A stretch of DNA of 64,000 bases, taken from Thauera propionica (GTDB lineage: Bacteria > Pseudomonadota > Gammaproteobacteria > Burkholderiales > Rhodocyclaceae). The DNA lies in NCBI RefSeq assembly GCF_002245655.1, contig NZ_NOIH01000006.1, positions 1-64,000 on the forward strand. Reading direction: 5' to 3'. A program made the position numbers and the translations under genes. The notes under the pieces are model-generated. The model saw nothing but the letters and a program-made list of their open reading frames with translations, was not told the DNA's origin and searched no databases. Numbering within the stretch: position 1 is the stretch's first letter; every line of letters starts with the position of its first letter. Shown here one piece after another: positions 1 to 17,282 of the stretch.

Positions 1-453
1 GCACGCCTCAGGCGCCCAAAAAAAGTAGGACCGCAGGCGTTGGGGCGCTCACGTGGAGGCCTGACGAGCAAGCTGCACTTTGCCGTCGATGCCTTGGGCA
101 AACCGCTGCGCATGATTCTGAGCGCAGGACAGGTCGCCGACATCGAGTGTGCGCACGATTTGATTGCCGATATGCCGTGCGCCAGTCTGGTTGCCGACAA
201 GGGATACGATGCCAACGCTTTGGTCATGAGTATCGAAGCATCCGGTGCCCAAGCAGTCATCCCGCCTCGATCCAACCGCATTGCCCCCAGGCACTACGAC
301 CGCTGCGCGTACCGCGCGCGAAATCTGATCGAGCGCTTCTTCAACCGTATCAAGCATTACCGTCGGATCGCCACACGCTACGACAAGCTCGCATGCAGCT
401 ACATGGCATTCGTGCGAATCGTTTGTGCGGTGATTTCATATCGCTATATGTGA
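1..453 (+). CDS. IS5-family transposase, C-terminal part (OrfB), cut by window edge
   Basis: This is the C-terminal half of a DDE transposase of the IS5 family, IS427-like by its two-frame layout. The frame is open from base 1, so there is no start here. Visible features are the block GRSRGGLTSKLH, the second catalytic Asp region (LVADKGYDA) and the C-terminal RNLIERFFNRIKHYRRIATRYDK, a transposase_11-type signature with the catalytic Glu. In the neighbouring frame the end of OrfA reads HASGAQKK and stops at 26-28. A run of seven A (18-24) joins the two frames by a -1 shift, giving the continuous family motif. It is probably expressed as a frameshift fusion with the upstream OrfA outside the window. 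Confidence 0.85.
   Translation, partial: ARLRRPKKVGPQALGRSRGGLTSKLHFAVDALGKPLRMILSAGQVADIECAHDLIADMPCASLVADKGYDANALVMSIEASGAQAVIPPRSNRIAPRHYDRCAYRARNLIERFFNRIKHYRRIATRYDKLACSYMAFVRIVCAVISYRYM
18..24 (+). other. A7 slippery site for -1 frameshift in the IS5-family element
   Basis: Seven consecutive A residues, followed by GTAG. Frame 2 ends HASGAQKK-stop here, while frame 1 continues VGPQALGRSRGG. A -1 slip on A-AAA-AAG fuses them into the expected transposase sequence. Seen in sequence; programmed slippage is inferred from the family. Confidence 0.7.
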
Positions 454-7251: not shown

Positions 7252-8079
7252 TCAGTCGCGCACGAAGCGGTCGGCGCCGGTGAACAGCAGGTGATGCTTG
7301 CCCTGTGCGCGTCCGACCATGGTCAGGCCGATGTTCTGTGCGATCTGCCAGCCCATGTGGGTCAGGCCCGAGCGCGACACCAGGAAGGGAATGCCCATCT
7401 GCGCGGTCTTGATCACCATCTCCGAGGTGAGCCGGCCGGTGGTGTAGAAGATCTTGTCCGCGCCCTCGAGCCCGTCCAGCCACATCTGGCCGGCGATGGC
7501 GTCCACCGCGTTGTGGCGGCCGACGTCCTCGAAGAACATCAGGATCTCGCAGCCGCCGGGCGTGGCCTGTGCCAGCGCGCAGCCGTGCACCGCGCCGGCC
7601 TGCTTGTAGATGGACTCGTGGTGGCGCACGGCCTCCATCAGCGCGTACAGCGTCGACTGCTTCAGCAGGCGGTCGTGTGGCAGACGCACCTGGTCGATCT
7701 CGTCCATCAAGCCGCCAAACACGGTGCCTTGGCCGCAGCCGGTCGTGACCGTGCGGCTGCCGAGCTTCTCGTCGGCGTCGCGCAGGCCGTTGCGGGTGGT
7801 CACCGACACCGCGTCGACCTCCCAGTCGACCTGCACCGAGGCGATCTCGTCTAGGCTGCGCACCAGACGCTGGTTTCGCAGCCAGCCGATGGTGAGCGCC
7901 TCGGGCGCGGCGCCCAGTGTCATCAGCGTGACGATCTCGCGCTTGTCCACGTAGAGCGTGAGCGGATGCTCGCCGGCGATGGCGGTGGGCACGGTTTCGC
8001 CATGCTCGTTGATGGCCGGGATCTCGACGGTGAGCGGGCGGCTGGCCTGGCTCAGCAGGGGGCGTTGGGACGCATTCAT
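7252..8079 (-). CDS. fdhD: Formate dehydrogenase accessory sulfurtransferase FdhD, 275 aa
   Basis: Transfers sulfur from the cysteine desulfurase IscS to the Mo-bisMGD cofactor before insertion in formate dehydrogenase. Family motifs include LYVDKREIVTLMTLG, GWLRNQRLVRSLDEI, MEDVGRHNA-type FFEDVGRHNAVDAIAG and FYTTGRLTSEMVIKTAQMG. The cysteine loop is TTGCGQGT with a single Cys, where E. coli has two in CxxC. Start ATG at 8079. It is the first gene of the minus-strand set with mobA and the HTH/COG1910 regulator, divergent from the DUF3305 gene across a 144-bp spacer. Confidence 0.95.
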   Translation of the reverse strand: MNASQRPLLSQASRPLTVEIPAINEHGETVPTAIAGEHPLTLYVDKREIVTLMTLGAAPEALTIGWLRNQRLVRSLDEIASVQVDWEVDAVSVTTRNGLRDADEKLGSRTVTTGCGQGTVFGGLMDEIDQVRLPHDRLLKQSTLYALMEAVRHHESIYKQAGAVHGCALAQATPGGCEILMFFEDVGRHNAVDAIAGQMWLDGLEGADKIFYTTGRLTSEMVIKTAQMGIPFLVSRSGLTHMGWQIAQNIGLTMVGRAQGKHHLLFTGADRFVRD

Positions 8080-8223: not shown

Positions 8224-8706
8224 ATGCGGGTGCGAGGCATGGAGAAATTCCCGGTTGCGGTGGTCATGGAGTGCCGCCGCCTGAACAATCCCTGGGTGGA
8301 CGAGGCCTGGGAGGCGGTGGGCGTGGTCCCCGCCTTCGATCTGGCCGATCCCGCGCCGGTCGAGATCGTGTCCGAGCCGGACCGCCGCCAGTGGCGCATC
8401 GGTGGCTGGGCGATCGAGCTGTTCCGCGACGAGGCGGACAACTACTTCCTCAACATGAGTTCGCCGATCCCCAAGGTGTTCGTGATGTGGCGCAAGGAAG
8501 GCGAACTGGCGCTGCCTGCGGCGGTGTCGGCGAGCTATGGCGAGGCGGCGCGCTGGCTGGATTCGGGCGAGCAGGTCGACGGTGTGCCGATGTCACGCGA
8601 GATCGCCGACTGGGTGGGCGATTTCGTCAACACGCACTACAAGCCGGCGCCGCGCAAGAAGGTGCGGCGCAACGACCCGTTGGCCCAGGACCGGGGGCGG
8701 GCGTGA
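8224..8706 (+). CDS. DUF3305 protein, formate dehydrogenase-associated, 160 aa
   Basis: Recognised as DUF3305 from KFPVAVVMECRRLNNPWVDEAWEAVGVVP near the N-terminus and from its neighbours. The middle carries IELFRDEADNYFLNMSSPIPKVFVMWR, and the C-terminus is basic (KPAPRKKVRRNDP). Such proteins are found beside membrane formate dehydrogenase genes in proteobacteria, but their biochemical role is unknown to me. ATG 8224 is used; ATG 8239 (MEKFPVAV) fits the family start better, but its GAGG is too close to be a good ribosome-binding site. The stop overlaps the DUF3306 start (GTGA). A TATGCT hexamer near 8194 may be its -10. Confidence 0.8.
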   Translation: MRVRGMEKFPVAVVMECRRLNNPWVDEAWEAVGVVPAFDLADPAPVEIVSEPDRRQWRIGGWAIELFRDEADNYFLNMSSPIPKVFVMWRKEGELALPAAVSASYGEAARWLDSGEQVDGVPMSREIADWVGDFVNTHYKPAPRKKVRRNDPLAQDRGRA

Positions 8707-9326
8707 GCGCGGGCGGCTTCCTGTCGCGTTGGTCGAAGCGCAAGCTGGCCGCTTCGCTTTCCGCTGCCAGCCAACCGGCGGCGGCCGAAGCGGGCGTGAC
8801 CGCCGACGCCGATGCGCGGGTTTCCGTTGACGCGGCTGATGGGCTGTCTGCGGGCGTCGCAGGCGAAGCGCGGGACCGTGCCGCGGTCGAAGCCGCGCTG
8901 CCGCCGGTCGAGGAGCTGACGCTGGCATCCGATTTCACCGCTTTCCTGAAGGAAGAGGTCAGCGAGTCGCTGCGCAGGCAGGCGCTGAAGAAGCTCTTCG
9001 CCGATCCGCATTTCAACCAGATGGACGGGCTGGACATCTATATCGACGACTACTCGATCGCCGACCCGATTCCGCCGTCGATGATGGAGAAGCTCAGGCA
9101 CGCGCGTGAGTGGCTGGACGACGTCGAGGAGAAAACCGAGGACGAAGCTGCCGGAGCCCGCGAAGAAGTCGCGAACGAGGCGGTGGGCGAGGCCGATGGT
9201 GCGCCCCGCGCCGTTCAGGACGACGATGCGGATGTCAGCGCCGAGGCTGGGGCAGAGTCTGGCAGCAACGCGCCGGACGAGATCGGTGCGGTAACGCCCC
9301 AGCCACGCCCGGCTGCTCGTGGTTGA
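8703..9326 (+). CDS. DUF3306 protein, 207 aa
   Basis: Starts at GTG, overlapping the previous stop by four bases. The N-terminal FLSRWSKRKL is the typical DUF3306 opening. The conserved core (residues about 75-135) has LTLASDFTAFLKEEVSESLRRQALKKLFADPHFNQMDGLDIYIDDYS and DPIPPSMMEKL. Both flanks are low-complexity and rich in Ala, Glu and Asp. It is always seen near DUF3305 and formate dehydrogenase genes, so it is probably an assembly or maturation partner; function is not established. A 151-bp spacer with a possible sigma-54 type promoter follows. Confidence 0.82.
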   Translation: MSAGGFLSRWSKRKLAASLSAASQPAAAEAGVTADADARVSVDAADGLSAGVAGEARDRAAVEAALPPVEELTLASDFTAFLKEEVSESLRRQALKKLFADPHFNQMDGLDIYIDDYSIADPIPPSMMEKLRHAREWLDDVEEKTEDEAAGAREEVANEAVGEADGAPRAVQDDDADVSAEAGAESGSNAPDEIGAVTPQPRPAARG

Positions 9327-9477: not shown

Positions 9478-11574
9478 ATGCAGAACACCCAGAAACAGAT
9501 TCATCTCTGCGACTGTAATCGCAGCTTCAGTCTCGACGCCGAGCGGCTGGCCGCTGGGGCGGGCAGTCTTGCGTGTCATCACGCCCTGTGTGGCGCTGAG
9601 CTGCCGGCGCTGGAAACCGACTTGGCGGCGGGGCGCGACGTCTTCGTGTCCTGTACGCAGGAAACCGCGCTGTTCGGCGAACTGGCCGAGTCGCAGCAGG
9701 CCGGCCAGCGCATTCACTTCTTCAATCTGCGCGAGAACGCCGGCTGGTCGGCCGAATCCGCGCAGGCCACGCCCAAGCTCGCTGCGCTGATCGCCGCCGC
9801 GATCACTTTGCCGGAACCGGAGCCGGTGCCCGCGGTGCAGATGCGCGCCGGCCGCAGCCTGCTGATCATCGGCGAGGCGGGCGTTGCGCTGGGCTGGGCC
9901 GAGCGCTTGGCAGGCAGTTTCGAACCCGCGGTGCTGATCACCCAGCGCGCCGGTGAGGTTGAGCTGCCGGCGGTCAATGAATACCCGGTGTGGTCGGGCA
10001 AGCCGATGAAGCTGTCCGGCCACCTCGGTGCCTTCGAGCTGCACTGGGCGCAGCAGAACCCGATCGACCTCGAGCTGTGCGTGCGCTGCAACGCCTGCGT
10101 CAAGGCCTGTCCGGAAGGCGCCATCGGTTTCGACCTGCAGGTCGACCTCGACGCCTGTCGCAGCCACCGTGCCTGCGTCGCCGCCTGTAGCGAGATCGGC
10201 GCGATCGACTTTGCGCGCAAGGATGTCGCCCGCAGCGAGCGTTTCGACCTGGTGCTGGACCTGTCCGCGGAGCCGCTGCTGAAGCGCGTCGAACTGCCCG
10301 ACGGCTACGCCGCGCCGGGCCGCGACCCGTTCGAGCAGGCGTTGGCAGTGCAGGGGCTGGGCGAATTCGTCGGCGAGTTCGAGAAGCCGCGCTACGTCGC
10401 CTTCGACGCCGGGCTGTGCGCGCACAGCCGCTCGAAGAAGACGGGCTGTACGAACTGCATCGAGGTCTGCGCCACCGATGCGATTCGCTCCAATGGCGAC
10501 GTGATCGCGGTCGACCCCTACCTCTGCAAGGGCTGTGGCACCTGCAGCACGGTGTGTCCGTCGGGCGCCCTGGGCTTCCAGTTCCCGCGTGTGCCGGACC
10601 TGGGGCAGCGGGTGAAGACGCTGCTGGCCGAGTATGCGCAGGCCGGCGGCACGGATGCCTGCATCCTGTTCCACGCTGCCGAGGCCGGCACGGCCACAAT
10701 CGGCCGGCTCGCGCGCCGCGGCCGCGGACTGCCGGCGCGGGTGATTCCGGTCGAGGTGTGGAGCGCGGATGCGGTCGGGCTGGACCTGATGCTCGGCAGC
10801 CTGGCGCTGGGCGCCTGCCAGGTGGCGGTGCTTGCTGCCGGCAGCCATGATGCCGCGCCGCTGAAGGCACAGGCCGGGCATGGCCAGACCATCCTCTCGG
10901 CGCTCGGCTACACCGGCGAACATCTGCGCATCATCGAGGCCGACGCCGACGACTGGCAGGCGCTGGAAACCGCGCTGTGGTCGTGGGCGCCGGCCGCCGC
11001 TGTCGCCGCGCCGGCGCGTTTCCGCCTGCTGCCGAAGAAACGCGAAACGCTGGATTTCGCACTGCGCCACCTCGTCGAGCACGCCCCTGCGGCGAAAGCC
11101 GAGGCGGGCCTGCCGGCGGCGATCGCGCTGAAGGCCGGCGCGCCTTTCGGCCAGGTCATCGCGTCCGACGCCTGTACGCTGTGCATGGCCTGTACCGGCG
11201 CCTGTCCGGCGAGCGCCTTGCGCGCATCGGGCGACAGCTATCGCCTCGAGTTCGTCGAGAAGAACTGCCTGCAGTGCGGCCTGTGCGTGAGTTCCTGTCC
11301 GGAGTCGGCGCTGAGCCTCGAGCCGCGCCTGCTGCTGACGGAAGACGCACGCCGCGCCCGCGCGCTGCGCGAGGCCGATGTCTTCCACTGCACCGCCTGT
11401 GGCAAGGCGATGGGCGCGACGCCGCTGATCGAAGCCATGATCGCCCGCCTGTCCGGCCATTCCATGTTCGCCACCGAGGCCGAGCGCGCCCGCCTGCGCA
11501 TGTGTGCCGACTGTCGCGTGATCGACATGATGAAGACCGAACCGGCGGTCAAAGCCTGGGACCTGAGCGAATGA
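9478..11574 (+). CDS. Multi-[4Fe-4S] cluster protein of the formate dehydrogenase operon, 698 aa
   Basis: Large cytoplasmic iron-sulfur protein with no signal peptide. Cysteine sets are at 201/204/207/211, 227/233/237, 314/324/327/331, 350/353/356/360, 566/569/572/576 and 597/600/603/607. A zinc-ribbon-like pair lies at 638/641 with 676/679, and an extra Cys-rich N-terminus at 11-38. Residues about 390-500 contain VIPVEVWSADAVGLDLML ... CQVAVLAAGSHDAAPLK ... ALGYTGEHLRIIEADADDW. This recalls the FlpD/MvhD hydrogenase-subunit domain with its cysteines lost; that similarity is my inference. Placed between DUF3306 and the chaperone gene and overlapping the latter, it may carry electrons to or from formate dehydrogenase or serve its maturation. 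Confidence 0.8.
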   Translation: MQNTQKQIHLCDCNRSFSLDAERLAAGAGSLACHHALCGAELPALETDLAAGRDVFVSCTQETALFGELAESQQAGQRIHFFNLRENAGWSAESAQATPKLAALIAAAITLPEPEPVPAVQMRAGRSLLIIGEAGVALGWAERLAGSFEPAVLITQRAGEVELPAVNEYPVWSGKPMKLSGHLGAFELHWAQQNPIDLELCVRCNACVKACPEGAIGFDLQVDLDACRSHRACVAACSEIGAIDFARKDVARSERFDLVLDLSAEPLLKRVELPDGYAAPGRDPFEQALAVQGLGEFVGEFEKPRYVAFDAGLCAHSRSKKTGCTNCIEVCATDAIRSNGDVIAVDPYLCKGCGTCSTVCPSGALGFQFPRVPDLGQRVKTLLAEYAQAGGTDACILFHAAEAGTATIGRLARRGRGLPARVIPVEVWSADAVGLDLMLGSLALGACQVAVLAAGSHDAAPLKAQAGHGQTILSALGYTGEHLRIIEADADDWQALETALWSWAPAAAVAAPARFRLLPKKRETLDFALRHLVEHAPAAKAEAGLPAAIALKAGAPFGQVIASDACTLCMACTGACPASALRASGDSYRLEFVEKNCLQCGLCVSSCPESALSLEPRLLLTEDARRARALREADVFHCTACGKAMGATPLIEAMIARLSGHSMFATEAERARLRMCADCRVIDMMKTEPAVKAWDLSE

Positions 11575-12206
11575 GCGCGCCGATTTCCATCCAGTCGCAG
11601 CCGACCTGGTCCGAGGAGGACCGCGCGCGCGCCGACCACTACGCGCTGCTGGCGCGCCTGTTCCATGCCGCGCCCGACGCGGCGCTGCTCGACGCGCTGG
11701 TGCAGGCCGGGCGCAGCCTGGGCGGCACTGAGGGGGCGCTGCCGCAGGCCTGGGCCGCGCTTGCGGCGGTCGCATCCAGCCTGCCGCTGCAAGACGTGCG
11801 CGCCGAGTTCGATGCGCTCTTCGTCAGCGTTTCCAAGCCGGTCGTGATGACGAACGGCTCCTGGTACATCACCGGTTTCCTGCAGGAGGAGCCGCTGGCC
11901 GATCTGCGCGAGGATCTGGCCGAACTTGGCCTGGGGCGCCGCCAGGGCGTGACCGAGACCGAGGACCACATCGCCGCGCTGGCCGAGGTGATGCGCCACC
12001 TGGTGTTGACCGGACCGGACGGGGCAGGGCTGGCGCGGCAGCAGCGTTTCTTCGGCCGCCACATCGCGCCCTGGTATGCGGACCTGGCGGCAGCCCTGGC
12101 GAAGGCGCCGGGAGTGGATTTTTATGCGAGGGTCGGCGCGTTGCTGCTGGCCTTCATGGACATCGAACGCGAGGCGTTCGACATGCTGGAGGCGCCCGCC
12201 GAATGA
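11571..12206 (+). CDS. TorD/DmsD-family molecular chaperone, 211 aa
   Basis: All-helical chaperone that binds the Tat signal or apo-form of molybdoenzymes before export. The family core is DVRAEFDALFVSVSKPVVMTNGSWYITGFLQEEPLADLREDLAELGL (residues 78-124), followed by TETEDHIAALAEVMRHL. The signature (E-x-x-x-LF ... P-x-x-S-x-Y) is here in a modified form with NGSWY. ATG overlaps the previous stop (ATGA), showing tight coupling. The client is probably the catalytic subunit encoded two genes downstream. Confidence 0.88.
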   Translation: MSAPISIQSQPTWSEEDRARADHYALLARLFHAAPDAALLDALVQAGRSLGGTEGALPQAWAALAAVASSLPLQDVRAEFDALFVSVSKPVVMTNGSWYITGFLQEEPLADLREDLAELGLGRRQGVTETEDHIAALAEVMRHLVLTGPDGAGLARQQRFFGRHIAPWYADLAAALAKAPGVDFYARVGALLLAFMDIEREAFDMLEAPAE

Positions 12207-12241: not shown

Positions 12242-12448
12242 ATGAAAGACGACAACACGAAGCTGTCGCGGCGGAATTTCCTGATGGCGATCGGTGCCAG
12301 TGGCGCCGCGGGTGCAGCGGCACTGGCCGCCACCGCGACCAAGACGGTGCCGGGCGCTGCGCAGGCCGTCGAGACCGCCCGCCGCGAGGAAGCGGACAAG
12401 GGTGTGAGCGAGCTCATGCGCAATTACTACCGCAGCGCGCGGGTCTGA
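12242..12448 (+). CDS. Small twin-arginine protein of formate dehydrogenase, 68 aa
   Basis: Short protein with a Tat signal (LSRRNFLMAIGASGAAGAAALAA, residues 7-29) and a short tail ending LMRNYYRSARV. It matches the formate dehydrogenase-region Tat target family seen just before fdh catalytic subunit genes. The start at 12242 has GAGAGCGAGG directly upstream; the longer frame from 12203 overlaps the chaperone gene. It may escort or stabilise the catalytic subunit during export, but its role is not proven. Confidence 0.85.
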   Translation: MKDDNTKLSRRNFLMAIGASGAAGAAALAATATKTVPGAAQAVETARREEADKGVSELMRNYYRSARV

Positions 12449-12461
12449 GGAGGACGCGACG

Positions 12462-15365
12462 ATGTTGACCAAGAAAAGCAGCGCCGCCACGGGCAGCGCC
12501 CGTCGCCTGCGGGGTTCCGCGGCGCGTGCCCTCGGCCAGACCATGGACCGCCGCGCCTTCCTGAAGCGCTCCGGCCTGGGCGTTGGCGCCGGGGCCATCG
12601 CGACGCAACTGCCGTACAACCTGATCGGCGCTGCCGAAGCCGCGGCGCCCGGCGTGTCGCGTGGCGAGGGCAAGGCCGATGTGCGCCGCACCGTCTGTAC
12701 GCACTGCTCGGTCGGCTGTGCGACCGACGCCATCGTGCGCAACGGCGTGTGGGTGCATCAGGAGCCGGTGTTCGATTCGCCGATCAATCTCGGCGCGCAC
12801 TGTGCCAAGGGCGCCTCGCTGCGCGAGCACGGCCACGGCGAACACCGCCTGAAGTACCCGATGAAGCTGGTGGACGGCAAGTACCAGAAGATCTCGTGGG
12901 AACAGGCGCTGAACGAAGTCGGCGACCGCCTGCTGAAGATCCGCGAGGAATCCGGCCCCGACGCGGTGTACTGGATCGGTTCGTCGAAGCACAGCAACGA
13001 GCAGGCCTACCTGCTGCGCAAGTTCGTGTCCTTCTGGGGCACCAACAACTGTGACCACCAGGCGCGCATCTGCCACTCCACCACCGTGGCAGGCGTGGCG
13101 AACACCTGGGGTTACGGCGCGATGACGAACTCCTACAACGACATGCAGTTCTCGAAGGCGGCGCTGTACATCGGCTCGAACGCCGCCGAGGCGCATCCGG
13201 TGTCGATGCTGCACATGCTGCATGCCAAGGAAAACGGCTGCAAGATGATCGTCGTCGACCCGCGCTTCACGCGTACGGCGGCAAAGGCCGACCAGTACGT
13301 GCGCATCCGCTCGGGCACCGACATCCCCTTCATCTGGGGCATGCTGTACCACATCTTCAAGAACGGCTGGGAAGACCAGAAGTACATCGACGACCGCGTC
13401 TTCGGCCTGGAGAAGGTCAAGGAAGAGATCATGACCTGGACGCCGGAGCGCGTTCAGGAAGTGACCGGGATCCCCGAGGAGCAGGTGTTCAAGGTCGCGC
13501 AGACACTGGCGATGAACCGGCCCTCGACCGTCGTGTGGTGCATGGGCCAGACCCAGCACACGGTGGGCAACGCCAACGTGCGCGCGATGTGCATCCTGCA
13601 GCTGGTGCTGGGCAACGTCGGCGTGTCGGGCGGCGGCACCAACATCTTCCGCGGCCACGACAACGTGCAGGGCGCGACCGACGTCGGTCCCAACCCGGAT
13701 TCGCTGCCCGGCTACTACGGCCTGGCTGCCGGCTCCTGGAAGCACTGGTGCCGCGTGTGGGGCGTCGACTACGAGTGGGTCAAGAGCCGCTACGCCTCCG
13801 AAGCGCTGATGACCAAGTCGGGCATCACGGTGTCGCGCTGGATCGACGGCGTGACCGAGAACAAGGAGCTGATCGACCAGCCGAGCAACCTGCGCGCTGT
13901 CGTGTACTGGGGCCATGCGCCCAACTCGCAGACCCGCGGCGCCGAGATGGTCGAGGCGATGAAGCAGCTCGACACCCTGGTGGTGATCGACCCCTATCCG
14001 TCGGCGACCGCGTCGATGGCAGCGATGGTGCGCAAGGACGGCGTGTATCTGCTGCCGGCCTGCACCCAGTTCGAGACCACCGGCTCGGCCACGGCGTCGA
14101 ACCGCTCGATCCAGTGGCGCGAGAAGGTCATCGAGCCGCTGTTCGAGTCCAAGCCCGACCACACCATCATGTACGCCTTCGCCAAGAAGTTCGGCTGGGG
14201 CGACGAGCTGGTGAAGAACATCAAGCTCGAGAAGGACGCCCAGGGCTGGGACGAGCCGAACATCGAGGACATCCTGCGCGAGATCAACCGCGGCACCTGG
14301 ACCATCGGCTACAGCGGCCAGTCGCCCGAGCGCCTGAAGCTGCACATGCAGAACATGCACACCTTCGACGTGAAGACGCTGAAGGCGGCCGGTGGCCCGT
14401 GCGACGGCGAGTACTTCGGCCTGCCGTGGCCGTGCTACGGCAACCCCGAGATGAAGCATCCGGGCACGCCCAACCTGTACGACACCTCCAAGCACGTCAT
14501 GGACGGCGGCGGCAACTTCCGCGCTAACTTCGGCGTGGAGAAGGACGGCGTGTCACTGCTCGCGGCCGAAGGCTCGGCCTCGAAGGGCGCTGACCTGCAG
14601 ATGGGCTACCCCGAGTTCGACCACACCCTGCTGAAGAAGCTGGGCTGGTGGGACGAACTGACCGATGCCGAGAAGGCCGAGGCCGAGGGCAAGAACTGGA
14701 AGACCGACCTGTCGGGCGGCATCATCCGCGTGGCGATGAAGAACCACGGCTGCCACCCCTTCGGCAACGCCAGGGCGCGCGCGCTGGTGTGGAACTTCCC
14801 CGACCCGGTGCCGCTGCACCGCGAGCCGATCTACTCGCCGCGTCCGGATCTGGTCGCCAAGTACCCGACCCACGACGACAAGGCCAAGTTCTGGCGCCTG
14901 CCGACCCTCTACAAGTCGCTGCAGGAAAAGGTCAAGGACATCTCCAGGGATTACCCGCTGATCATGACCTCGGGCCGTCTGGTCGAGTACGAAGGTGGTG
15001 GCGAGGAAACCCGCTCCAACCCCTGGCTGGCCGAACTGCAGCAGGAGATGTTCGCCGAGGTGAACCCCAAGGACGCCAACGACGCGGGCTTCCGCAACGG
15101 CGACTACATCTGGGTCGAGTCGCCCACCAAGGCGAAGCTGAAGGTGCGCGCCCAGGTCACGCAGCGCGTGGCGCCGGGCACGGTGTTCCTGCCCTTCCAC
15201 TTCTCCGGCTGGTGGCAGGGCCAGGACATGCTCAAGTACTACCCCGAGGGCGCGGCACCGATCGTGCGCGGCGAGGCGGTCAACACCGCCACGACCTATG
15301 GCTACGACCCGGTGACGATGATGCAGGAAACCAAGACCACCCTGTGCCGCGTGAGCAAAGCGTAA
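12462..15365 (+). CDS. fdhA: Formate dehydrogenase catalytic (alpha) subunit, cysteine type, 967 aa
   Basis: Oxidises formate to CO2 with a Mo/W-bisMGD cofactor. The Tat signal MDRRAFLKRSGLG (twin Arg 30-31) directs export to the periplasm. The [4Fe-4S] ligands are C78, C81, C85 and C113 (CTHCSVGC ... HCAKG). The metal ligand is C203 in ARICHSTTV, followed by the catalytic His204, where E. coli FdnG has selenocysteine; no in-frame TGA is present. The C-terminal molydopterin-dinucleotide domain includes LIMTSGRLVEYEGGGEETRSNPWL and the end VFLPFHFSGWWQGQDMLKYYP. Ribosome-binding site GAGGAGG about 8 bases before ATG. Co-transcribed with the beta, lipoprotein and gamma genes. Confidence 0.95.
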   Translation: MLTKKSSAATGSARRLRGSAARALGQTMDRRAFLKRSGLGVGAGAIATQLPYNLIGAAEAAAPGVSRGEGKADVRRTVCTHCSVGCATDAIVRNGVWVHQEPVFDSPINLGAHCAKGASLREHGHGEHRLKYPMKLVDGKYQKISWEQALNEVGDRLLKIREESGPDAVYWIGSSKHSNEQAYLLRKFVSFWGTNNCDHQARICHSTTVAGVANTWGYGAMTNSYNDMQFSKAALYIGSNAAEAHPVSMLHMLHAKENGCKMIVVDPRFTRTAAKADQYVRIRSGTDIPFIWGMLYHIFKNGWEDQKYIDDRVFGLEKVKEEIMTWTPERVQEVTGIPEEQVFKVAQTLAMNRPSTVVWCMGQTQHTVGNANVRAMCILQLVLGNVGVSGGGTNIFRGHDNVQGATDVGPNPDSLPGYYGLAAGSWKHWCRVWGVDYEWVKSRYASEALMTKSGITVSRWIDGVTENKELIDQPSNLRAVVYWGHAPNSQTRGAEMVEAMKQLDTLVVIDPYPSATASMAAMVRKDGVYLLPACTQFETTGSATASNRSIQWREKVIEPLFESKPDHTIMYAFAKKFGWGDELVKNIKLEKDAQGWDEPNIEDILREINRGTWTIGYSGQSPERLKLHMQNMHTFDVKTLKAAGGPCDGEYFGLPWPCYGNPEMKHPGTPNLYDTSKHVMDGGGNFRANFGVEKDGVSLLAAEGSASKGADLQMGYPEFDHTLLKKLGWWDELTDAEKAEAEGKNWKTDLSGGIIRVAMKNHGCHPFGNARARALVWNFPDPVPLHREPIYSPRPDLVAKYPTHDDKAKFWRLPTLYKSLQEKVKDISRDYPLIMTSGRLVEYEGGGEETRSNPWLAELQQEMFAEVNPKDANDAGFRNGDYIWVESPTKAKLKVRAQVTQRVAPGTVFLPFHFSGWWQGQDMLKYYPEGAAPIVRGEAVNTATTYGYDPVTMMQETKTTLCRVSKA

Positions 15366-16016: not shown

Positions 16017-16249
16017 GCATGCCGACCATGAAGCTGTTGCGTACCGCCGCGCTCGGCGGCGTCCTGGCGCTGGGCCTGTCGGCCTGCGGCGAGACTTCGC
16101 AGGTGCCGGTGTACAAGGACGGCAAGTACTCCGGCAAGGCCGACACCCGGCCGTGGGAGAGCGCCGAGTTCAAGGGTGACAAGGCTGCCTGGGAGGCTGC
16201 GCTGAAGAATCGTGCGCGCGGCCAGAACGAGTACAACCGCGGCGATTGA
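16013..16249 (+). CDS. Small predicted lipoprotein in the formate dehydrogenase operon, 78 aa
   Basis: Begins at ATG overlapping the fdhB stop (ATGA). The signal peptide is MKLLRTAALGGVLALGLSAC, with lipobox LSAC (Cys25), so the mature protein would be a lipid-anchored peptide of about 54 residues. The mature part reads VPVYKDGKYSGKADTRPWESAEFKGDKAAWEAALKNRARGQNEYNRGD, which I do not assign to a family. Its position between the beta and gamma genes, in a run of overlapping genes, suggests a periplasmic accessory role for the dehydrogenase complex. Confidence 0.75.
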   Translation: MSMPTMKLLRTAALGGVLALGLSACGETSQVPVYKDGKYSGKADTRPWESAEFKGDKAAWEAALKNRARGQNEYNRGD

Positions 16250-16259
16250 GGAGAGCACC

Positions 16260-17282
16260 ATGAAGGCATTCTTCATGCGACGGCCGGGCGGTGCGCTGCT
16301 CGCCGTGCTGCTGCTCGTGCTGACGCTGTTTGCATCGGCGCCGCCGGTGCGGGCGGCCGATCACGCGCACACCGGCAGCACGGCCGCCGATCAGGCCGAG
16401 CGGCAGCAGGAGCGTCCCGGCAACAACGCGCCGGTATGGCGCGCGGTGCGTTCGGGCGAAGCGCACTTCACCACCGTGCGCGGCCCCGAGGCCGGCGTGC
16501 TGATCCAGGCCGAAGGCAACTCGTGGCGCCATCTGCGCAACGGTCCCATCACCGTGTACGGCGGCGCGCTGCTCATCGCCATGGCCTCGGCCATTGCGCT
16601 GTTCTGGCTGGTCAAGGGCACGATGAAGCTGCACGGCGCGCGCACCGGCCGCACGATGAAGCGCTTCTCCGGCTTCGAGCGTTTCGTGCACTGGGGTACG
16701 GCCCTCAGCTTTCTGCTGCTGGCGGTCACCGGGGTGGCGATCCTGTTCGGCAAGCATGTGCTGGCGCCGATCTTGGGTTCGGACTTCCTCGCCTTGTTGC
16801 TGACCGCGGGCAAGCTGATCCACAACTACGTGGGGCCGGTGTTCGGCGTGTTCCTGCTGCTGATGATCCTGACTTTCCTGCGCGACAACGTGTGGCAGGC
16901 CTGCGACGCGATCTGGATCCGCCGTGCCGGCGGACTGCTCGACGGCAACCACGTGCCTTCAAGCCGCTTCAACTTCGGCGAGAAGACCTGGTTCTGGTTG
17001 GGCGTGACCTTCCTCGGGCTGGCGGTCGCGATCTCCGGGTTGGTGATGGACTTTCCGAACTACGGCTGGACGCGCGGCGAGATGCAGATCGCCAACATCG
17101 TGCATGCGGTCGGTGCCATCGTGCTGCTGGCCCTGTCCTTCGGTCACATCTACATGGGAACGGTCGGTGTGGAAGGCGCCTACGAGTCGATGAAGACCGG
17201 CTACGTGGACGAGACCTGGGCCAAGGAGCACCACGCGATCTGGTATGAGGACGTCAAGGCGGGCAAGTCCGGCCATCCCTGA
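16260..17282 (+). CDS. fdhC: Formate dehydrogenase gamma subunit, cytochrome b556, 340 aa
   Basis: Membrane cytochrome b that anchors the complex and reduces the quinone pool. A cleavable N-terminal signal (residues 1-32) is followed by a periplasmic segment of about 75 residues and four membrane helices starting near 100, 145, 195 and 245-285. Candidate haem ligands are the His residues in RFVHWGTALSF, KLIHNYVGPVFG and LSFGHIYMGTVG. Length is greater than E. coli FdnI because of the extra N-terminal periplasmic part. ATG at 16260 with GAGGAGAG upstream. Followed by two hairpins, the second a clear terminator. Confidence 0.93.
   Translation: MKAFFMRRPGGALLAVLLLVLTLFASAPPVRAADHAHTGSTAADQAERQQERPGNNAPVWRAVRSGEAHFTTVRGPEAGVLIQAEGNSWRHLRNGPITVYGGALLIAMASAIALFWLVKGTMKLHGARTGRTMKRFSGFERFVHWGTALSFLLLAVTGVAILFGKHVLAPILGSDFLALLLTAGKLIHNYVGPVFGVFLLLMILTFLRDNVWQACDAIWIRRAGGLLDGNHVPSSRFNFGEKTWFWLGVTFLGLAVAISGLVMDFPNYGWTRGEMQIANIVHAVGAIVLLALSFGHIYMGTVGVEGAYESMKTGYVDETWAKEHHAIWYEDVKAGKSGHP

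Follow-up and report, generated by a model that had tools for sequence, protein, structure and literature searches.

A multi-cluster iron–sulfur protein in a formate dehydrogenase gene cluster of Thauera propionica resembles a flavin-less HdrA–MvhD relative with a HycF-like end

A formate dehydrogenase (FDH) gene cluster lies in a 64,000-nucleotide stretch of the Thauera propionica genome (contig NZ_NOIH01000006.1, positions 1 to 64,000; hereafter the window), and one of its genes, at positions 9478–11574, encodes a 698-residue protein carrying an unusually large set of cysteine motifs (hereafter the Fe–S protein). The locus raises the question of what such a protein does beside an enzyme whose catalytic subunit, FdhA, bears a twin-arginine translocation (Tat) motif. 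Our comparisons revealed that the Fe–S protein is related to both HdrA and MvhD, yet fails the defining feature of each, that is to say, the flavin adenine dinucleotide (FAD) motif of the former and the cysteine ligands of the latter; it looks like a flavin-less HdrA–MvhD relative with a HycF-like end. We favour, with moderate confidence, the Fe–S protein being a cytoplasmic redox or iron–sulfur maturation partner of the Tat-exported FdhA of an FDH3-type enzyme, which would act together with a TorD-like chaperone in a manner similar to NapF.

The 698-residue reading frame reported in an earlier note on this DNA is real: it is intact from the ATG at 9478 to the stop codon ending at 11574, and its 3′ end shares 4 bases (ATGA) with the TorD-like gene, which starts at 11571, in a formate dehydrogenase cluster as the note described. 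The chain contains 34 cysteines, which comprise an N-terminal group of five (residues 11, 13, 33, 38, and 59), six ferredoxin-type motifs (201/204/207/211, 227/[His230]/233/237, 314/324/327/331, 350/353/356/360, 566/569/572/576, and 597/600/603/607), a C-terminal CxxC/CxxC arrangement (638/641 and 676/679), and the isolated Cys395 and Cys447. The cysteine-rich N-terminus and the C-terminal pair described in the note are thus both present, and so are its six ferredoxin-type sets, except that the second reads C-x2-H-x2-C-x3-C, with His230 in place of the second cysteine, so the ferredoxin motifs would hold six clusters at most. The features of the Fe–S protein are as follows.

9478..11574, + strand: multi-cluster Fe–S protein (698 amino acids), intact reading frame
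9508..9654, + strand: N-terminal HdrA-like cysteine domain with C11/C13/C38/C59 (residues 11–59), from N-terminal profile matches to HdrA
9853..10053, + strand: remnant of the HdrA thioredoxin-reductase-like (FAD) domain with GxGxxG lost (residues 126–192), from profile alignment
10078..10188, + strand: first ferredoxin pair, second motif C-x2-H-x2-C-x3-C (residues 201–237), pair present in 18 of 70 sequences
10417..10557, + strand: second ferredoxin pair, C314-x-H316-x7-C-x2-C-x3-C followed by C350..C360 (residues 314–360), kin of the HdrA C-terminal ferredoxin domain
10573..11157, + strand: predicted MvhD/FlpD-like domain without conserved cysteines (residues 366–560), from AlphaFold2 and Foldseek
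11173..11298, + strand: third ferredoxin pair, HycF-like (residues 566–607), eight cysteines invariant in 70 sequences
11389..11514, + strand: C-terminal metal site CxxC-x34-CxxC, HycF-type quartet (residues 638–679), present in 70 of 70 sequences

No signal peptide was seen by eye in the Fe–S protein, and the four highest 19-residue hydropathy windows (maximum 1.86) begin at residues 433–437, within the modelled MvhD-like domain; the protein is probably cytoplasmic. A Pfam scan of the whole protein matched 15 families, all of the ferredoxin type, and the 25 listed of 100 matching NCBIfam families were matched through the ferredoxin motifs. Among these 25, only TIGR02179 (PorD/KorD) exceeded its cut-off (68.1 versus 60.05), which we read as a generic ferredoxin signal. 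A PHROGs scan gave 2 weak matches in the ferredoxin region.

Conservation was counted in an alignment of 70 sequences, consisting of the window protein and 69 homologues. (Start codons at the homologous loci were chosen by script, and those of loci L010 and L011 are possibly wrong; lineage terms for the sampled genomes derive from kinship to the window and to named loci of Thauera, other Rhodocyclaceae, and Aurantimonas.) Residues C314, C324, C327, C331, C350, C356, and C360, the eight cysteines of the third ferredoxin pair, and the C-terminal quartet are invariant in all 70 sequences, and H316 and H661 are each kept in 69. C11, C13, and C38 are cysteines in 49 of the 49 sequences having the N-terminal part, the remaining 21 being gapped there, and C59 is a cysteine in 50 of 70. 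Cys353 is kept in 51 of 70; all 19 sequences that have lost it are devoid of the N-terminal domain, and these 19 may form a single lineage, to be counted possibly as one event. The cysteine pattern is not due to chance. The first ferredoxin pair occurs in 18 sequences (one from the window, six from named beta-type contigs, and eleven from genomes of the order to which the window belongs), with His230 in all 18; this pair is a candidate for a His-ligated or [3Fe-4S] cluster.

From this set, 47 sequences (the window protein and 46 of the 69 locus proteins), 62 middle domains of the 70, and 44 N-termini of the 49 available were aligned as profiles; those left out were mainly near-duplicates, together with L073, a non-FDH type. 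The 47-member profile matched HdrA chains of the PDB at 2 colinear places: (i) profile positions 40–189, which span the N-terminal domain and the start of the Rossmann fold, align to HdrA residues 61–245 (independent expectation value 1.9e-7); and (ii) positions 281–343 align to HdrA residues 592–654, the C-terminal ferredoxin pair (53.7 bits, independent expectation value 1.1e-13). The ferredoxin matches are partly generic, the top PDB chain being that of the polyferredoxin FwdF (E 2.6e-27, best single stretch only 32.4 bits). In the search with the 44 N-termini, HdrA chains took the first four places, with E values of 1.3e-5 to 0.0046 (4.5e-4 for the best single stretch); the next match, at 0.088, was noise. 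The HdrA models of NCBIfam matched 9 and 3 of these N-termini and no other NCBIfam model matched more than one, while a Pfam scan of the 44 found no repeated meaningful family (2 families with 2 of 44 each); no NCBIfam HdrA model matched the window protein's own N-terminus.

The N-terminal cysteine-containing domain of HdrA is thus recognized in the Fe–S protein by the PDB profile and by C11, C13, and C38, with cluster binding putative, and the C-terminal 2[4Fe-4S] ferredoxin domain is present as well. The FAD-domain signature GxGxxG is not: the first glycine is kept in 69 of 70 sequences, the second in only 8, and the third is alanine in 54. The distance from G184 to C314 is 84–129 residues in four sequences, compared with approximately 350 in HdrA as judged from the alignment ends at 245 and 592. 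A bifurcating enzyme of the HdrA type is unlikely, given the lost FAD motif. The structure predicted by AlphaFold2 for residues 1–196 had a mean predicted local distance difference test score (pLDDT) of 50. The link to HdrA that the earlier note suspected was therefore right and extends to the N-terminus, the FAD remnant, and the second ferredoxin pair, which align with HdrA in the same order; compared with HdrA and HdrA–MvhD fusions, the Fe–S protein lacks most of the FAD domain, has other gene neighbours, and bears an additional HycF-like end.

The middle region has a predicted MvhD/FlpD-like fold. An AlphaFold2 model of the full chain computed from ten sequences was of moderate quality (mean pLDDT 62), with ten-residue means of 67–91 over residues 371–550 and values below 50 in large parts of the ferredoxin regions. 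Foldseek placed MvhD chains, named hydrogenase subunit D (8rvu_F, 7bkb_F, 5odh_D, and 5odc_D), at four of the top five positions with probability 1.00, template modelling scores of 0.65–0.73 by target, and E values of 1.8e-3 to 4.3e-3 (none at or below 0.001), so that the fold comparison set in the earlier note for its FlpD/MvhD-like middle came out in its favour on a predicted model. The same note called this region cysteine-free; the region holds Cys395 and Cys447, neither of which is conserved (cysteine in 7 and 8 of 70 sequences), and at every column of the domain the count of cysteines stays at or below 9 of 70, so that the cluster ligands of MvhD were not found. With matches counted at E up to 1, FlpD was the sole Pfam family matching more than one of the 62 middle domains (14 of 62, all weak, best E 0.0089), and the window's own middle scored 11.8 bits against PF02662 (E 0.25; gathering cut-off 22.3). 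The 62-sequence profile found no MvhD among PDB sequences, its best match being a designed protein (E 0.017). PF02662 was not detected at E 0.001 in the window's own genome and 5 relatives, and among 150 genomes it gave one weak match in the Fe–S protein of genome G478 (E 8.5e-4, below the cut-off). The middle domain thus shares a predicted fold with the hydrogenase delta subunit MvhD/FlpD (PF02662) and differs from it in having no conserved cysteines and a FlpD score under the cut-off. In 2 genomes of the window's order, a single frame of 553–557 residues combines cytochrome b, ferredoxin motifs, and a FlpD domain (L164:5069-6739 and L165:5479-7137), a membrane-bound MvhD-like arrangement.

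The order HdrA–MvhD on one chain, as in the Fe–S protein, also occurs in HdrA–MvhD fusions, presumably those called QmoB. We compared the family by hhalign with a set of 25 fusion sequences from the window's taxonomic order, of which 19 were partial frames (five from the same genes as full ones; effective number of sequences 1.8). The ferredoxin and middle regions together aligned in register (E 6.7e-10, carried chiefly by the ferredoxin part; reversed control 0.025). The middle alone aligned at the correct place, short of significance and with little advantage over the reversed control (P 0.25 versus 0.51), and the N-terminus gave E 0.003 with probability 10 (reversed control 0.65). In the HdrA system, electrons are described as entering HdrA via MvhD (PMC9012536).

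The C-terminal end corresponds to HycF/HyfH of formate hydrogenlyase, which likewise combines a 2[4Fe-4S] ferredoxin pair with a cysteine quartet. The PDB search matched HycF chain 7z0s_F over profile positions 511–635 (E 9.9e-15). The published HycF quartet (Cys117, Cys120, Cys155, and Cys158) has the form CxxC-x34-CPxC with the metal tentatively assigned as iron, and is placed near the surface at which HycF meets the formate dehydrogenase FdhF (PMC9474812). The spacing is identical in the window protein (x34) and ranges from 32 to 38 across the 70 sequences; the HycF-like part differs from HycF/HyfH in belonging to a larger chain. NCBIfam model NF009053 scored 51.2 against a cut-off of 204, and a Foldseek match to HycF (probability 1.00, root-mean-square deviation 8.4), located at the expected ferredoxin part of low pLDDT, is not relied on here. 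A reading of the C-terminus as a zinc-finger regulator was set aside in preference for the HycF-type site. Scans of ten proteins of the cluster with Pfam and NCBIfam found no hydrogenase catalytic family.

In the window, the genes around the Fe–S gene run in the order DUF3305, DUF3306, Fe–S protein, TorD-like chaperone, small Tat protein, FdhA, FDH3 beta, and FdhC, with the gene of FdhD divergent.

7252..8079, − strand: FdhD sulfurtransferase (275 amino acids), divergent and upstream, PF02634 (E 4.1e-75)
8224..8706, + strand: DUF3305 protein, PF11749 (E 5.9e-48)
8703..9326, + strand: DUF3306 protein, PF11748 (E 2.1e-33)
11571..12206, + strand: TorD-like chaperone (211 amino acids), PF02613 (E 1.5e-23)
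12242..12448, + strand: small twin-arginine protein (68 amino acids), TIGR02811 (40.2 bits, under the 48.45 cut-off)
12462..15365, + strand: FdhA, molybdopterin catalytic subunit (967 amino acids), PF00384, PF04879, and PF01568
15384..16016, + strand: FDH3 beta subunit (210 amino acids), NF038355 (340.6 bits, over the 240 cut-off)
16227..17282, + strand: FdhC, cytochrome b gamma subunit (351 amino acids), TIGR01583 (176.8 bits, over the cut-off)

FdhA scored 471 bits against TIGR01591, under the cut-off of 666, and its Tat motif reads RRAFLK by eye. The same gene order is reported for Shewanella oneidensis, in which SO_4503 is FdhD, SO_4506 an "iron-sulfur cluster-binding protein", SO_4507 a chaperone named FdhT, and SO_4509 FdhA; from this order, we take SO_4506 to be of the same family as the Fe–S protein. 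The earlier note's view that a cytoplasmic relay of this size is unexpected was too strong, given this shared order and the wide annotation of relatives as "4Fe-4S binding protein". A 2015 survey lists "fer4" genes and hypothetical ferredoxins in TorD-fdh operons (PMC4464133), and from gene order the "fer4" genes are likewise taken to be this family. For SO4504–4507 and VC1515–1516, the parts of the open-licence literature consulted hold expression, annotation, or localisation data only. As far as searches of that literature show, two findings are new: the make-up from HdrA-, MvhD-, and HycF-related modules, and the existence of copies linked to TorD in loci other than FDH operons.

The association with FDH holds across the phylum. 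Among 398 genomes, the Fe–S protein (E at or below 1e-20) was found in 62, FDH3 beta (over its cut-off) in 61, and DUF3305 in 61; the genomes with FDH3 beta and with DUF3305 are the identical 61, and all 61 have the Fe–S protein. In 34 of 69 loci, the TorD gene lies directly downstream on the same strand. In the one additional genome, G219, a TorD-like gene precedes the Fe–S gene, and both come after the genes of a different molybdoenzyme, an iron–sulfur subunit, and an NrfD subunit. In its family, 8 of 80 genomes have a divergent, non-FDH copy of the Fe–S protein. In all 8, the recognized gene immediately preceding this copy is TorD-like and shares its strand, and a different molybdoenzyme and an iron–sulfur subunit lie alongside (in L161, the molybdoenzyme frame was matched in its C-terminal part only). 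The gap to the TorD-like gene is within approximately 200 bases in seven and 0.6–0.9 kilobases (kb) in L159; 2 of the TorD-like genes were confirmed by Pfam and six by 60–74% identity to one of these. All 8 copies keep C-x-H-x7-C-x2-C-x3-C, three full ferredoxin motifs, and the quartet. The best models for their molybdoenzymes were ArrA and PhsA, both sub-threshold, and no match to DUF3305/3306, FdhC, or FdhD was found in the fetched stretches of these loci. Because these loci also carry the Fe–S gene after a TorD-like gene, the factor shared across contexts is a TorD-like chaperone with a molybdoenzyme, not formate. The TorD-like chaperone that neighbours the non-FDH copy in L073 (L073:4846-5784) bears a C-terminal CxxC...CxxC of its own, which resembles by eye that of the Fe–S protein.

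The known maturation factors of such enzymes offer a comparison. FdhE is described as a rubredoxin-type factor for periplasmic FDHs (PMC10609526). It was found in 55 of the 398 genomes, but the 61 FDH3 genomes include only 2 of these, where 8.4 were expected (hypergeometric P 0.004, with kinship ignored), a scarcity that could merely mirror the class of FDH in each genome; this distribution suggests that FDH3 enzymes usually mature without FdhE. NapF is described as a cytosolic four-cluster protein that is needed when the NapA cluster is reconstituted in vitro, and that forms a complex with NapA (PMC10609526), and the loss of the ferredoxin-like HydN and YsaA is reported to lower FDH-H activity (PMC6004506). 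We propose that the Fe–S protein works as NapF does: with its several clusters, it would act in the cytosol on a molybdoenzyme destined for Tat export. NapF is reported to have four tetra-cysteine motifs, unlike the Fe–S protein, and the NCBIfam NapF model scored 42.4 on the latter (cut-off 102.2), best over the third ferredoxin pair. To our knowledge, NapF has no HdrA- or MvhD-like parts.

A redox or iron–sulfur maturation step on FdhA before export is favoured, with NapF and HydN/YsaA as precedents for ferredoxin-like proteins that act on the catalytic subunits of molybdoenzymes. In their own complexes, modules of the HdrA, MvhD, and HycF types serve enzymes that draw electrons from hydrogenase or formate dehydrogenase. 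By analogy with the sites of these modules elsewhere, the MvhD- and HycF-like domains of the Fe–S protein may dock on the cytoplasmic precursor of FdhA or FdhAB, while the TorD-like chaperone would hold the FdhA precursor back from Tat; the chain of clusters would then supply the reducing equivalents, or an iron–sulfur cluster, that complete FdhA before export. Such a role with TorD would explain why the link to FDH is constant, why copies also occur in non-FDH contexts, and why FdhE is scarce. Of the 2 functions put forward in the earlier note, assistance in maturation is the better fit, given the TorD-linked non-FDH copies and the Tat-bearing FDH partner, while nothing directly supports the other, a connection between formate oxidation and cytoplasmic ferredoxin, which also meets a topological problem. 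In a more elaborate and doubtful version, the flavin-less HdrA–MvhD descendant would dock on the molybdoenzyme precursor through its MvhD- and HycF-type surfaces, reduce and check the freshly inserted molybdenum and iron–sulfur cofactors as a surrogate electron partner, and with TorD license release to Tat.

Several observations weigh against the maturation role. All the modules recognized are of the electron-transfer kind, which means that a true relay would look alike, and co-occurrence alone cannot tell the explanations apart. TorD lies on the opposite strand in 25 of the 69 loci; in 4 it shares the strand but is more distant or overlaps by the frame rule, and in 6, L073 included, it has no match. 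In genome G016, the Fe–S gene (C1:1236511-1238433) lies approximately 31 kb from DUF3305 and approximately 36 kb from FDH3 beta (both in C1:1269109-1275071), although the genes still co-occur. The N-terminal domain is missing from 21 of 70 sequences, 19 of which also lack Cys353, so not every cluster is needed. The 2015 survey reports FdhD/E in trans in 97% of species with TorD-fdh operons and judged that FdhD/E is not compensated by TorD (PMC4464133); this sits uneasily with our FdhE count, although the survey pools FdhD with FdhE and covers other genomes. In the open-licence literature, no functional study of or experiment on any member of the family was found.

The alternative of an electron relay, in which formate electrons would pass from unexported FdhAB or from the cytoplasmic face of FdhC through the clusters to a cytoplasmic ferredoxin or another acceptor, as in methanogen MvhD/HdrA, would explain why the kin of the protein in HdrA, MvhD, and HycF are electron-transfer subunits and why up to six or seven clusters sit on one chain. 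We nevertheless regard it as unlikely: FdhA carries a Tat motif, and in Shewanella the FdhA proteins are counted among the Tat substrates of the periplasm (PMC3623810). Moreover, the absence of conserved cysteines from the MvhD-like domain and of the glycine motif from the FAD domain makes HdrA-type bifurcation unlikely, and the same family adjoins non-FDH molybdoenzymes. If the Fe–S protein were instead a subunit of the mature membrane complex, bound beneath FdhC and draining cytochrome b toward the cytoplasm, its presence with FDH3 beta in all 61 genomes, in clusters that often include FdhC, would be expected, and the cytochrome b–FlpD fusions of L164 and L165 would provide a parallel. This is quite improbable, since the protein has no clear anchor (the one listed hydropathy peak above 1.6 lies inside the modelled MvhD-like domain), members occur with an NrfD subunit (G219) or without an FdhC match, and the flow would be contrary to that of FDH-N-type enzymes, which are periplasmic and operate in the quinone-reducing direction.

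A sensor of redox state or oxygen that controls TorD or the export of FDH, in which oxidising conditions would break the clusters and assembly would stop, seems very improbable to us. The many clusters, the torD overlap, which suggests coupled synthesis, and the likeness of the metal site to that of HycF, for which a redox-dependent tuning of the affinity for FdhF is proposed (PMC9474812), fit such a sensor. By contrast, neither the 15 Pfam families nor the 25 NCBIfam families listed of 100 include a DNA-binding or signalling domain, and this many clusters would hardly be needed.

The maturation role has a practical side, as formate dehydrogenases attract interest for the reduction of CO2 and how FDH3-type enzymes mature without FdhE is at issue. 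If the Fe–S protein is the missing factor, its co-expression with TorD and FdhD could be tried for obtaining active enzyme. It would also mean that an HdrA–MvhD electron-transfer scaffold has been reused for protein maturation with the loss of the flavin motif and one set of cysteines, and the occurrence of the protein in 62 of 398 genomes across the phylum makes the question a broad one.

The small Tat-signal protein (12242–12448) has little sequence beyond its signal. By gene order, its apparent counterparts in Shewanella are SO4508 and SO4512, which are called accessory proteins (PMC3623810). By eye, a MobA-like frame adjoins FdhD, and transposase-like frames lie at the edge of the window (40–453 and 863–1702).

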